Source: Opitutia bacterium Tous-C4FEB | GTDB lineage: Bacteria; Verrucomicrobiota; Verrucomicrobiia; Opitutales; Opitutaceae | NCBI GenBank assembly: GCA_002304445.1 | Contig: NEVA01000013.1 | Coordinates: 1-64,000, forward strand | Reading direction: 5' to 3' | DNA: 64,000 nucleotides | Shown here: positions 59,745 through 62,770 of the stretch, in pieces | How positions within the stretch are numbered: position 1 is the stretch's first letter | Layout of the letters: the number at the start of each line of letters is the position of its first letter | Notes under the pieces: model-generated | What the model was told of the DNA's origin: nothing | What the model saw: the letters and a program-made list of their open reading frames with translations, nothing else | Database searches by the model: none | Position numbers and translations under genes: made by a program

Positions 59745-59880
59745 CTGCCCGCTGGGTGAGCCCCCTCCGGGCGTGGGCACCGGCCACCACCAAAATTGTG
59801 ATGAGCTTGTCGCCGCTTTGCGCCGCTCGGCGACCGAGCCCGTGGTTCCAGATTCCGTCCAGACCCCGAATCAAAACCCC

Positions 59881-60258
59881 TCACAGCTCGGTATACTTTT
59901 CCGCCCGACCTCTGGCCTTCGCCACCGGATATTTCTCCCCGTTCGCGGCCATTTTCGCCTCGATCGCCGCCGCCACATCGAGCCCGGTGACGTTGGCGAA
60001 TTCCAAGGCGTAGATCACGACGTCGGCCAATTCCTCCGCGATTTTGGTGCGCTTTACGGGATCGTTCATCACCGCCCGGGACGCCTCCGGCGTGCTCCAC
60101 AAAAAGTGCTCCATCAACTCCCCCGCTTCGGCGGCAAGCGCCATGCTCAGATTCTTCGGCGCATGGAACTGCTCCCAGTCCCGTTCGCGGGCAAACTCCA
60201 GCACGCGGCCCTTCAGCTCTTGGATCGTGGTCGTGGCGTCGGTCAGCGGCTCGTTCAT
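59881..60258 (-). CDS. MazG-like nucleotide pyrophosphohydrolase
   Basis: The 125-residue protein has the all-alpha NTP pyrophosphohydrolase pattern: LEFARERDWEQFHAPKNLSMALAAEAGELMEHFLW (with EAGEL and ExxE metal ligands) and the second acidic motif EELADVVIYALEFAN. It is of the single-domain, dCTP-pyrophosphatase-like type rather than the double-domain MazG. It would remove non-canonical nucleotides in the cytosol. ATG 60258 starts the conserved region; ATG 60282 is possible, while the longer frame runs into a family C repeat (60284-60312). Confidence 0.88.
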   Translation of the reverse strand: MNEPLTDATTTIQELKGRVLEFARERDWEQFHAPKNLSMALAAEAGELMEHFLWSTPEASRAVMNDPVKRTKIAEELADVVIYALEFANVTGLDVAAAIEAKMAANGEKYPVAKARGRAEKYTEL

Positions 60259-60283
60259 CCGCTTAAGTTGCCGCGATTTCATG

Positions 60284-60312
60284 CTGGGAGCGAGCTTGCT
60301 CGCGACTCCCGC
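60284..60312. repeat. REP-like repeat, family C
   Basis: GCTGGGAGCGAGCTTGCTCG followed by CGACTCCC contains GAGCGAGCTTGCTCGC, a hairpin of the form seen at 23.1 kb, just upstream of the MazG-like gene. Confidence 0.55.
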
Positions 60313-60318
60313 TCTCAC

Positions 60319-60646
60319 TTCTCCGCTCGCAAACCTCGGCTCTCAGTCGCCCGCTCCGTCACCCAATCTTCACCGTCATAAAAAGATTCGGACTTGGCAC
60401 GCCGGCTGCATTTTAGGCCGTGTCTCCAAGTTCCAATGACTCCCGCTCGCTCACCTCTCCACCGCCCCGCCGGCACTTCGATTACGAAGGCCGTGCAGCC
60501 ATGCGGTGCCCAGATGCAGGCGGTCGTCTCCAATTGGAGCCAAAAAACTCGCCCGGGCTTCTCCGGCTAACCCTCCGAACCATCGGACCAATTAGCCAAA
60601 ACGAGAAGCCCGGAGCCCCAAGCTCCAGGAAGCTACCGCCTTTCCC
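60319..60646. other. Gene-free interval of 328 bp with a structured leader
   Basis: No gene is seen. The left part has no recognised feature. The right part (60553-60613) folds into a three-step stem-loop immediately upstream of the hsp20 gene. Confidence 0.5.
60553..60613 (+). promoter_or_regulatory. Structured leader of the hsp20-like gene (possible RNA thermometer)
   Basis: Nested inverted repeats form one long stem: CCGGGCTTCTC (60553-60563) with GAGAAGCCCGG (60603-60613), GGCTAA (60565-60570) with TTAGCC (60592-60597), and TCCGA (60574-60578) with TCGGA (60583-60587), capped by a 4-nt loop. The structure ends 33 bases before the start codon; AGGAAG at 60627-60632 is a possible ribosome site between them. 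Small heat-shock genes often carry thermosensing leaders, but this fold is not a known ROSE or fourU type, and a DNA-level repeat is an alternative. Confidence 0.4.
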
Positions 60647-61039
60647 ATGCACACGATCATCAACTCCCGTCGCTCCGCCCGTCGCCCGCGCCTTGCCCAA
60701 GCCATCGAGACCTTTCGTCAGCCGAGTTACGACTGCCGCGACCACGCCGATACCATGACGTTGTCGGTCTACGTGCCCGGCGTGGACGCCGCCGGGGTCG
60801 ATATCGAGGCCATCGGCCCCGATCTGATGATTACCGCCCGCAAATCCCATTTTGTCCGCGTGAACTGGCAGTCCCTTCACCTCGAAGGCGCGCAGCGCGA
60901 CTATCAGCTTCGCCTGCGGCTCGGCCTTGGTTTCAATTATCCCGCGATGCAGGCCGAGATGCACGAAGGCGTGCTCACGGTCCGCCTACCGAAGCGGGCA
61001 ACCGCTGAGGCCGAAACGTCGCTCCGTCGCGTCGCCTGA
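60647..61039 (+). CDS. Hsp20-like small heat-shock protein
   Basis: The 130-residue protein has an alpha-crystallin-type domain: RDHADTMTLSVYVPGVDAAGVDIEAIGPDLMITARKS and the C-terminal LNYPAMQAEMHEGVLTVRLPKR pattern (here FNYPAMQAEM). The N-terminal arm is basic and short. It should act as a holding chaperone oligomer in the cytosol. It lacks a clear I-x-I tail motif, so it is a diverged member. Preceded by a structured leader and followed by a bidirectional terminator. Confidence 0.82.
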   Translation: MHTIINSRRSARRPRLAQAIETFRQPSYDCRDHADTMTLSVYVPGVDAAGVDIEAIGPDLMITARKSHFVRVNWQSLHLEGAQRDYQLRLRLGLGFNYPAMQAEMHEGVLTVRLPKRATAEAETSLRRVA

Positions 61040-61098
61040 GCTTGATTAACTGCGACCTATCTCGACCTCCGGGCGGGCCGACGCTTGCATTGGGGCCG

Positions 61099-61134
61099 AA
61101 AAAAGGAGCGGGCGTGATGCCCGCTCCTTTTTTT
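61099..61134. terminator. Bidirectional Rho-independent terminator between hsp20 and the MFS gene
   Basis: GGAGCGGGC (61105-61113) and GCCCGCTCC (61119-61127) form a perfect 9-bp stem with GTGAT loop, with six A before and seven T after, so it works in both directions for the two converging genes. Confidence 0.93.
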
Positions 61135-61168
61135 GCGACTCCGGGCCGAAGCCCGAAGATTTTCAAAA

Positions 61169-62770
61169 TCAGGACTTCGCGTCCTGCTCCTCGATCTTAA
61201 CTACCCGGTAACCACCGATGCTCTTAAAATAGATCATTACGGCCAAAAAGATCAGCGCCATGGCCGCAGGAATGAAAGAGTCGGCCTTTAGCGTAAGACG
61301 ATCGCCCTTTTGGTCAGCGGCGAAGATCGCCTGTTGCGCAGGCGTCGCGGTCTTGGCCGCGACTGCTTCCTTGGCCGCCGCCAACTTCGTGCCGTCGATC
61401 GCGTAGACCGGTTCCAAGAAGAAGAACTTCGAAGGCGAGGCGGCCTTCACGGTCTCGTAGGCCGCCGGATCGGTCTTCTGCAACGTTTCGGCCGCATACC
61501 GATCCTTGCTGTAGCCCAAACCGGGACCACCGATCAGACCAGCCGACATCATGCCGATACCGCCCATGACGGACATCGCGACCGCGCCCGAACGCGGGTA
61601 ACGATCACCGACGACCGCCAGCATCGTTGGCCAGAAAAAGGTCTTACCGACGGCGTAGATGCCCAGCGCGACCAAGGCCATGGTGAAGGTCTGCATGACG
61701 CTTGCGAGCTGCAGGCCCACCACGCCGAAGATGGAACACACCAGCAAGAGCGCAATCGGCGAGAGCTTCAATTTAGTCTCAATCCAATGAGCAGAGAACC
61801 GCAGGCTGAACATGATAACCGAGGTCCAAATGAACAGGAACTTGCCTTGCTCCGACGTGAACAAATTGCCCGTGATATTCTGAATCCAACCGTCAGTCCC
61901 GAGTTCAACTGCACCAATCAAGGCGTGCGCGATAAACAGGAAGAAGAGGAGCACTGAGCCTAGGGAGAACTTTGTCACGATCCCAACGGCTACCATCAGC
62001 ACACCCGCCACCGCGTAGCCGACAGAATCAGGGAAGCTCGCCACTCCGAACAGCGCCGCGAGAGGGCCAGAGGCAAAATTCGCCAAAAGGTAGCAGGCTA
62101 CAGCCGCACCGAGCAGGCCGACATCCTTGAACATCTCACTGAACTTCGCGCCCTTTTGGGCCGCCTCGGACTTCGGCATATGTTGGCCGAGGAACATCAA
62201 GCCGTAAGCCAACGTCGGGATGAGATAGAGGGCGAGTTGGATCTTCCAACCCACCTGCATTTTGTCGTCCAAGATCCAACCCACCGCACTGCCGGCGATC
62301 AAACCTGCCGGCCAGCTGGCGTGGAGGATGTTCAGATAGTGAGTGCGCTGTTTCGGGAAAAGTGTCGCGACCAATGGATTGGCGACCGCTTCCAGGACGC
62401 CGTTCGCCAGCGCAAAGATGAACATACCGATCGTCAGCATCTGGAACGCGTTCTCCGGCGTTGACGCCGCGAAGGTCACAAACGCCGAGATGACGTGAAA
62501 CGCGAATGCGGCCCACACCAGCTTGCTGTAGCCGATCTTGTCGACGATCAGACCACCAATGATGATGCCGAAGCAAAATCCGGTGAAGCCGGCGCCGCCG
62601 ATGGCGCCGAGTTGCGTGGCCGTGAAGCCGAACTCTTTGCCCCAATTGTCAAAAATACCGCCACGGACGGCAAAACCGACGCCGGCCGCGAAGATGGCCC
62701 AAAAGCCGGCCCAAAGAAGGCGCTTCGCATTAGCAGCGAGTGGCGCGTTATCGACATTCTGATTACTCAT
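61169..62770 (-). CDS. MFS sugar transporter
   Basis: The 533-residue protein has 12 predicted helices and the MFS signatures [19 protein letters not shown] near helix 1-2, GGLIVDKIG (the loop 2-3 motif) and MTIG-like regions. It resembles the FucP/NagP-like group of PVC sugar porters, with an extended loop between the last helices ([22 protein letters not shown]). It probably imports a monosaccharide with protons or sodium. ATG 62770 is preferred to 62839 because the upstream residues are unconserved. Two inverted repeats upstream (62823-62840, 62867-62881) may be operators. Confidence 0.88.

Follow-up and report, generated by a model that had tools for sequence, protein, structure and literature searches.

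A putative composite leader, in which a conserved RNA fold overlaps an upstream open reading frame, precedes a small heat-shock gene in the Opitutaceae

Our combined findings suggest that the long hairpin in front of the hsp20-like gene of Opitutia bacterium Tous-C4FEB, here called H3, is one piece of a conserved leader of ~225 nt that is found once per genome, before one hsp20 gene. As judged by comparison of related loci, this region probably acts in cis as a composite regulatory leader for a small heat-shock gene that has a sigma54-type promoter, and it appears to be specific to one family, which we infer from named relatives to be the Opitutaceae. That the leader is conserved and structured, and that its reading frame has been maintained, seems nearly certain from the alignments. 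The best overall explanation we can offer is a composite leader gated by translation of an upstream open reading frame (uORF), a reading in which our confidence and our doubt are evenly balanced. This uORF, absent from an earlier sequence-only reading that had described the hairpin, has its stop codon (60568-60570) inside H3; that reading also lacked the sigma54-type promoter and further conserved helices, several in number, upstream of the hairpin. The features of the leader and its surroundings in the window (the whole stretch of DNA analyzed, 64,000 nt) are as follows.

59881-60318, minus strand: MazG-like gene, divergent from the hsp20 leader (Pfam MazG-like, E 1.9e-16).
60394-60410, plus strand: putative sigma54-type -24/-12 promoter, TTGGCACGCCGGCTGCA (TGGC-N9-GC), with transcription probably starting near 60421.
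60430-60437, plus strand: 5' strand of helix P0 in the uORF start region, GUUCCAAU, which pairs with 60533-60540 in the window fold.
60436-60570, plus strand: uORF of 44 codons, MTPARSPLHRPAGTSITKAVQPCGAQMQAVVSNWSQKTRPGFSG and then TAA, called from its start and stop and from frame conservation across leaders.
Within 60454-60516, plus strand: helix P1 (60454-60457/60513-60516), inside the uORF, with one mismatch in the window (RNAalifold).
Within 60454-60516, plus strand: helix P2 (60460-60465/60503-60508), inside the uORF (RNAalifold).
60472-60492, plus strand: hairpin H1, GGCACUUCG-AUUA-CGAAGGCC, inside the uORF.
60528-60539, plus strand: H2b, a local palindrome, CTCCAATTGGAG, read from the sequence.
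60533-60540, plus strand: 3' strand of P0, over the Trp codon UGG at 60535-60537 (window fold and duplex tests).
60553-60613, plus strand: H3, the hairpin of the sequence-only reading; the last uORF codons form its 5' arm and the uORF stop lies in its inner stem.
60612-60626, plus strand: H4, GGAGC-CCCAA-GCUCC, read from the sequence; it shares two bases with the base of H3 and has weaker consensus support.
60628-60645, plus strand: H5, a weak hairpin of the window fold that reaches the pyrimidine-rich bases before the hsp20 ATG.
60647-61039, plus strand: hsp20-like gene, 130 aa (Pfam HSP20, E 1.3e-8).

The hairpin itself is as the sequence-only reading had described it, with nested inverted repeats of 11, 6 and 5 bp that form a single structure. 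The outer arms (60553-60563/60603-60613) are complementary at 11 of 11 positions; read from the sequence, the middle arms (GGCTAA, 60565-60570, and TTAGCC, 60592-60597) make 6 bp and the innermost arms (TCCGA, 60574-60578, and TCGGA, 60583-60587) make 5 bp around the loop ACCA. The three arms are stacked as one hairpin when 60540-60690 is folded at minimum energy (-44.7 kcal/mol for that entire segment), and none of 200 dinucleotide shuffles folded as well (-31.2 +/- 3.4 kcal/mol; z -3.98). The 3' end of H3 at 60613 is indeed 33 bases upstream of the start codon, the ATG at 60647, and the Pfam match bears out that the gene is hsp20-like. The absence of a sequence link to ROSE elements, also claimed in that reading, fits the absence of Rfam matches on the leader: no family reached the gathering score in the whole window or in 20 related loci, and within 60200-61200 nothing matched the leader up to E 5. 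Thirteen sub-threshold Rfam matches, all at 61034-61187 around the terminator after hsp20, were taken as chance. This last element is a hairpin (GGAGCGGGC..GCCCGCTCC, 61098-61135 in the window) with T runs on both strands, located between hsp20 and a convergent MFS gene; by eye it is likely a two-way terminator, and it draws the sub-threshold matches.

We collected the leaders of hsp20 relatives from 150 genomes of the family, 129 of which had a match, and from 31 loci from genome contigs. Reading of 60 loci (L009-L068) yielded 46 distinct leaders, including that of the window (L009); without a truncated one (L013), a partial one (L034) and one whose uORF stop is lost (L041), 43 remained as the core set, and 35 later leaders brought the set to 78. 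The H3 hairpin recurs with altered sequence among the leaders of the family. Two covariance models, each built from 38 leaders, were used in searches: R1 for the 5' domain and R2 for the hairpin. R1 matched 86 and R2 68 of the 150 family genomes, with one match each at E 0.01, and 85 of the 86 and 67 of the 68 matches were located no more than 500 nt 5' of an hsp20 match, on the same strand. A single genome (G114) is the exception for both models, and there too the match runs into an hsp20 start, near a contig end. In a sample of the wider class, R1 matched 14 of 286 genomes, all within the Opitutaceae, a search in which weak distant relatives could be missed since the models come from family members and stricter filters were used in the large searches. 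Among 103 genomes of the order, hsp20 matches of about E 1e-34 or better were found in eight, all of them Opitutaceae; nine genomes from other families of the order had an hsp20 match at E <=1e-12, the best at 2.8e-15. Eighteen genomes had an hsp20 match and neither an R1 nor an R2 match. On reading, 14 of these show a uORF, three (G036, G077 and G087) are truncated at a contig end or have their match there, and in the remaining genome (G042, locus L158) no uORF was seen.

This distribution bears on another suggestion of the sequence-only reading, that H3 may be a transposon-derived palindrome. A long palindrome alone would fit such an origin, or chance. However, a BLAST search of the leader against its own 3.76 Mb genome returned one full-length copy, the other 10 matches being short (E >=0.35); every matched genome carries a single model match, before hsp20; and the helices hold compensatory changes, described below. 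A search for the element away from hsp20 genes found no copy, the R1 and R2 matches in 86 and 68 genomes all being placed before hsp20. We thus give chance or a transposon practically no credence as the source of the hairpin.

Four loci deserve separate mention. The nearest full-length hsp20 found (84%) is that of L041 (2787-3001) in Opitutia bacterium Baikal-G3. This locus lacks the uORF stop, the Trp codon and an hsp20 ATG in the usual position, and leader and gene start seem to be decaying together. Three loci of one genus (L169, L168 and L165, from G125, G108 and G016) have two hsp20 matches close together; the second copy in L169 has an H4-like hairpin and a Shine-Dalgarno sequence before its ATG, with no uORF seen directly upstream.

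The uORF is a regular part of the leader. All 43 core leaders have an ATG, a TAA and 44-47 codons between them, and stops occur in the other two frames in 40 and 25 of 43 leaders. Over the 78 leaders, where the start in the 35 later ones was taken as the ATG nearest 46 codons, the uORF has 43-50 codons and ends in TAA (51 leaders), TGA (25) or TAG (2), 71-241 nt before hsp20. Of 40 further loci, 37 carry a uORF (the 35 of the larger set together with L152 and L169); L158-L160 do not, and their hsp20 is only 35-43% identical. In the most divergent leaders (L141, L144, L145, L150 and L153) the peptide similarity score of 28-33 overlaps with or hardly exceeds the 25-29 of the three loci rejected, so that the uORF there was called on its position, start and stop. 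As these frames had been picked by frame, a frame-blind test was made with the spacing of the model matches. From R1 start to R2 start the distance was 102, 105, 108, 111, 114 or 117, always divisible by 3, in all 62 genomes matched by both models; the lengths of the R2 matches, which lie mostly beyond the stop, were distributed 24/15/23 over the three residues modulo 3. A spacing that is always 0 modulo 3 indicates a frame kept by selection, which implies translation. Codon-position entropies of the uORF were 0.81/0.71/0.74 with no third-position excess, and the case for translation therefore rests on conservation of the frame, the start and the stop.

A frame kept in all 62 genomes is also what one would expect if the uORF encoded a small functional protein, e.g., a co-chaperone, in an operon with hsp20, with H3 as an intercistronic structure that tunes or stabilizes the two-gene message. 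The peptide does have recurrent residues: a Trp is present in the later part of 77 of the 78 uORFs (its codon is absent from its place in L041, L145 and L184), and in 34 peptides W34 and G41 are invariant and H7, A12, G13, S15, T17, K18, A19, M27 and V30 nearly so. Most of the conserved residues, however, are encoded within H1, P1 and P0, so that RNA pairing can account for them. Selection on the protein also appears weak, with pN/pS at 0.79 for the uORF versus 0.36 for hsp20 over 358 related, non-independent leader pairs (pS 0.28 and pN 0.22 versus pS 0.49 and pN 0.18); the uORF ratio is high mainly due to low synonymous change (0.28 vs 0.49). The synonymous share of single-base codon changes in the uORF was 0.29, against 0.24 expected. 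These values suggest weakly constrained amino acids and synonymous sites that are held back, i.e., an RNA that is conserved more than its peptide. Furthermore, in some genera, represented by L147 and L184, the position of H1 holds hairpins of different sequence (CGCATCCCTCCGGATGCG and GCCTGCATCCAGCAGGC, respectively) together with a different peptide. The peptide matched no Pfam family, and its weak NCBIfam matches, to GvpN (E 0.0034, 16.9 of 266.8 bits) and SkfA (E 0.017, 15 of 45 bits), are far below cutoff and were ascribed to chance. A functional small protein is thus an unlikely explanation.

The consensus fold computed by RNAalifold consists of an arm, P1-P2-H1, within the uORF, and of H3 over the uORF end. 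Pairing and covariation statistics for all leader helices ignore kinship among the genomes. For P1, P2 and H1 together, 95.5% of cells are paired in the MAFFT rows, with 23 double changes versus 4.6 in shuffled data. In the model-fitted alignments (A5 and A6), which cover only the 55 and 71 of 82 loci matched by the models and lean to the model structure, 70 distinct rows have 96.5% of cells paired, and 52 cells are changed on both sides versus 10.9 when shuffled. Columns 18/74 of A6, in P2, exemplify this with AU 24, GC 18 and CG 6. For H3, the MAFFT rows have 86.8% of cells paired and 13 double changes versus 5.9 shuffled, and the model-fitted rows have 34 cells changed on both sides versus 11.0. 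Further pair types in H3 barely exceed the shuffles (52/500 as high in the MAFFT rows, 27/500 in the model-fitted ones); several H3 pairs are invariant in the MAFFT rows and hence uninformative on covariation, and the inner stem is nearly invariant in the core set partly because the stop codon lies inside it. Pairs do covary in the leaders of orthologues, though several in H3 never vary. When the leaders were folded singly around the uORF stop, 77 of 78 had 6 or more pairs enclosing it (median z -3.7), and z was below -2 in 73 of 78 (40 shuffles each).

Support for P0, the helix predicted between the uORF start and the Trp-codon strand some 100 nt further on, is good without being decisive, since the test statistics ignore kinship. 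In a fixed register, 62.9% of cells pair in 77 leaders versus 58.4% with shuffled partners (0/2000 as high); the signal is weak in the 43 core leaders (72.6% vs 71.3%, 65/2000 as high), and in 34 divergent leaders the values are 50.6% and 46.9% (11/2000 as high). Slid registers reached at most 50.4, 52.1 and 48.2% in the 77, core and divergent leaders, respectively. With the register left free, the duplex with a leader's own partner averaged -9.3 kcal/mol versus -7.2 kcal/mol with the partners of other leaders (77 leaders), and the own-partner duplex was better than the mean of the others' in 63 of 77. When the windows of each leader are ranked by pairing with the uORF start, the Trp-codon strand falls on average within the top 13%. 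P0 and the local hairpin H2/H2b cross or compete, which would make P0 either a pseudoknot or a switch; its rival for the Trp-codon strand would be H2b. Taken together, the alignments and predicted folds suggest an ORF that stays open across a fold which ribosomes must break, the start lying in one helix and the stop in a second.

Upstream of the uORF we found a putative sigma54-type promoter with GG and GC cores at a fixed spacing. The pattern TGGC-N9-GC, whose spacing we take to be that of the sigma54 consensus, was chosen after the leaders had been inspected; it is present in 69 of the 76 leaders that have 130 nt upstream, with 0.09 expected per 130 nt from the window. The distance from the GC core to the uORF ATG has a median of 26 nt, and five leaders have 53-59 nt. 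Further upstream, 20 of 76 leaders have a motif GCAATCYT (CCAATCTT at window 60363-60370) at a distance of 70-74 nt from the uORF start, possibly an activator site. No Shine-Dalgarno sequence precedes the uORF in any of the 78 leaders. Within 18 nt of the hsp20 start, such a sequence is lacking in the window leader and in 65 of 78 leaders, and 13 of 78 have one. These sites look rare in the source genome in general (a rough test found them at 3 of the 35 long mechanical ORFs in the window), and masking of a Shine-Dalgarno sequence was dropped as an explanation, with no such site before the window hsp20. The predicted cost of opening 9 nt at the start was 4.1 kcal/mol for the uORF and 1.5 for hsp20, with the uORF AUG being costlier to open than the hsp20 AUG in 66 of 78 leaders. 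Nonetheless, the uORF AUG is less hidden than the average 9-nt window of the same RNA (4.1 vs 5.7 kcal/mol).

A small heat-shock protein as the gene product makes an RNA thermometer an obvious alternative, in which heating melts the leader and frees hsp20 translation. The sequence-only reading had placed such sensing in H3, and that part of its proposal is not supported: the outer stem is predicted to be paired at 0.99 at 42 C and still at 0.94 at 80 C in the window fold, no hsp20 start is covered by it, and the hsp20 AUG is already rather open. H3 is thus predicted to be too stable to sense physiological heat. The wider proposal of a new regulatory class fares better as far as comparison goes, as the structure is conserved with compensatory changes, stays with a single hsp20 locus and matches no Rfam family at gathering score. 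A thermometer could instead reside at P0 and the uORF start. In the window leader, the first two bases of the uORF AUG are predicted to go from ~0.06 unpaired at 20 C to ~0.7-0.8 at 50 C, and heating is also predicted to free some bases directly upstream of the hsp20 AUG; for the hsp20 AUG, the mean unpaired value of 78 leaders rises from 0.41 to 0.61 in the same range. Over these leaders, however, the mean for the uORF AUG hardly changes (0.21 to 0.27), and the hsp20 AUG is not costly to open in the first place (1.5 kcal/mol). Two known types of thermometer act on a Shine-Dalgarno sequence: in the fourU type it is paired with four U, unlike the situation at the window hsp20 ATG, which has no such sequence within 18 nt. 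In ROSE elements, as the text of PMC3669281 describes them, a U(U/C)GCU motif in the 3'-proximal hairpin pairs with it. The Opitutaceae leader resembles ROSE in having several hairpins before a small heat-shock gene, and differs from it in the missing Shine-Dalgarno sequence in the window leader and the missing Rfam match; where the hsp20 start lacks such a site nearby, as in 65 of 78 leaders, there is no target for ROSE-type masking. On these predictions, we consider a thermometer unlikely here.

Gating of the leader by ribosomes is the mechanism we favor, although our confidence in it falls slightly short of even. The fold and a translating ribosome would be mutually exclusive. As long as the RNA is folded, P0 would partly hide the uORF start, which lacks a Shine-Dalgarno sequence; ribosomes that do enter would unfold P0, P2 and H1 along the way, and a ribosome at the uORF stop would keep the 5' arm of H3 unpaired. 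The amount of hsp20 product could then follow the state of translation, or whatever else opens P0, by way of coupling, message stability or transcript elongation. The balance leans towards uORF translation favoring hsp20 output. A more specific version, which we regard as tentative and rather doubtful, is a translation sensor in which the ORF that is sensed also forms the fold: the uORF start would pair with its own Trp-codon strand, and the leader, one per genome across the family and with its fold selected more than its peptide, would read whether ribosomes enter and finish a 45-codon ORF and relay this to the chaperone gene. An alternative to gating is autoregulation, by analogy with E. coli IbpA, which binds the 5' UTR of its own mRNA according to the text of PMC10474464. 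A long structured leader that is tied to one hsp20 subfamily, and was not found outside the family, would suit binding by the Hsp20 protein, but such binding by itself leaves an ORF kept open through structure unexplained, and we see only a small chance that it accounts for the leader.

The putative gated leader has partial counterparts among known systems. The trp, his and thr attenuators are of the leader-peptide type, in which a short ORF overlaps hairpins before the gene, and this arrangement is shared by the Opitutaceae leader. In contrast to attenuators, the uORF peptides have no long run of one amino acid, and a consensus scan of 59800-61800, in the window only, found no plus-strand intrinsic terminator between the uORF and hsp20. 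Closer in kind are the structured leader RNAs that include a short ORF, described in the main text of PMC8632094: the odc1 motif (uORF-25-1), uORFC-8-2 (cysS) and uORFC-6-1 (hflX), for which start-codon choice or ribosome stalling is the proposed action (PMC8632094). They too have a short ORF in a structured leader upstream of the regulated gene, and the Opitutaceae leader has the feature of this type, a conserved open frame overlapping covarying RNA structure 5' of one gene. The odc1 uORF has 11 residues, a fixed length, a conserved peptide and a sequestered RBS (PMC8632094), whereas the Opitutaceae uORF has 43-50 codons, a variable length, weak constraint on the peptide and no masked RBS, much of the fold lies within the ORF, and the gene is hsp20. 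A sigma54 link has a counterpart in another small heat-shock gene, E. coli ibpB, which is said to be transcribed by sigma54 (PMC4370416); unlike here, no leader ORF is named for ibpB in the available text of that source. The main text of PMC8632094 has no mention of Opitut, hsp20 or heat shock, and the text of PMC2864571 none of Opitut, hsp20, heat shock or Verruco. Among the papers listed in literature searches, no such hsp20 leader was noted for the Opitutaceae.

From our findings, a small heat-shock gene seems to have a control element that is common to the family and matches no Rfam entry. With its conserved frame and low synonymous change, the leader is a clear example of bases shared between an ORF and an RNA fold. 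Many natural variants, among them three different stop codons, replaced H1 stems and one decaying copy, make the gating idea testable with reporters. For the Opitutaceae, the leader suggests that the ribosomes on it may set the amount of the chaperone.
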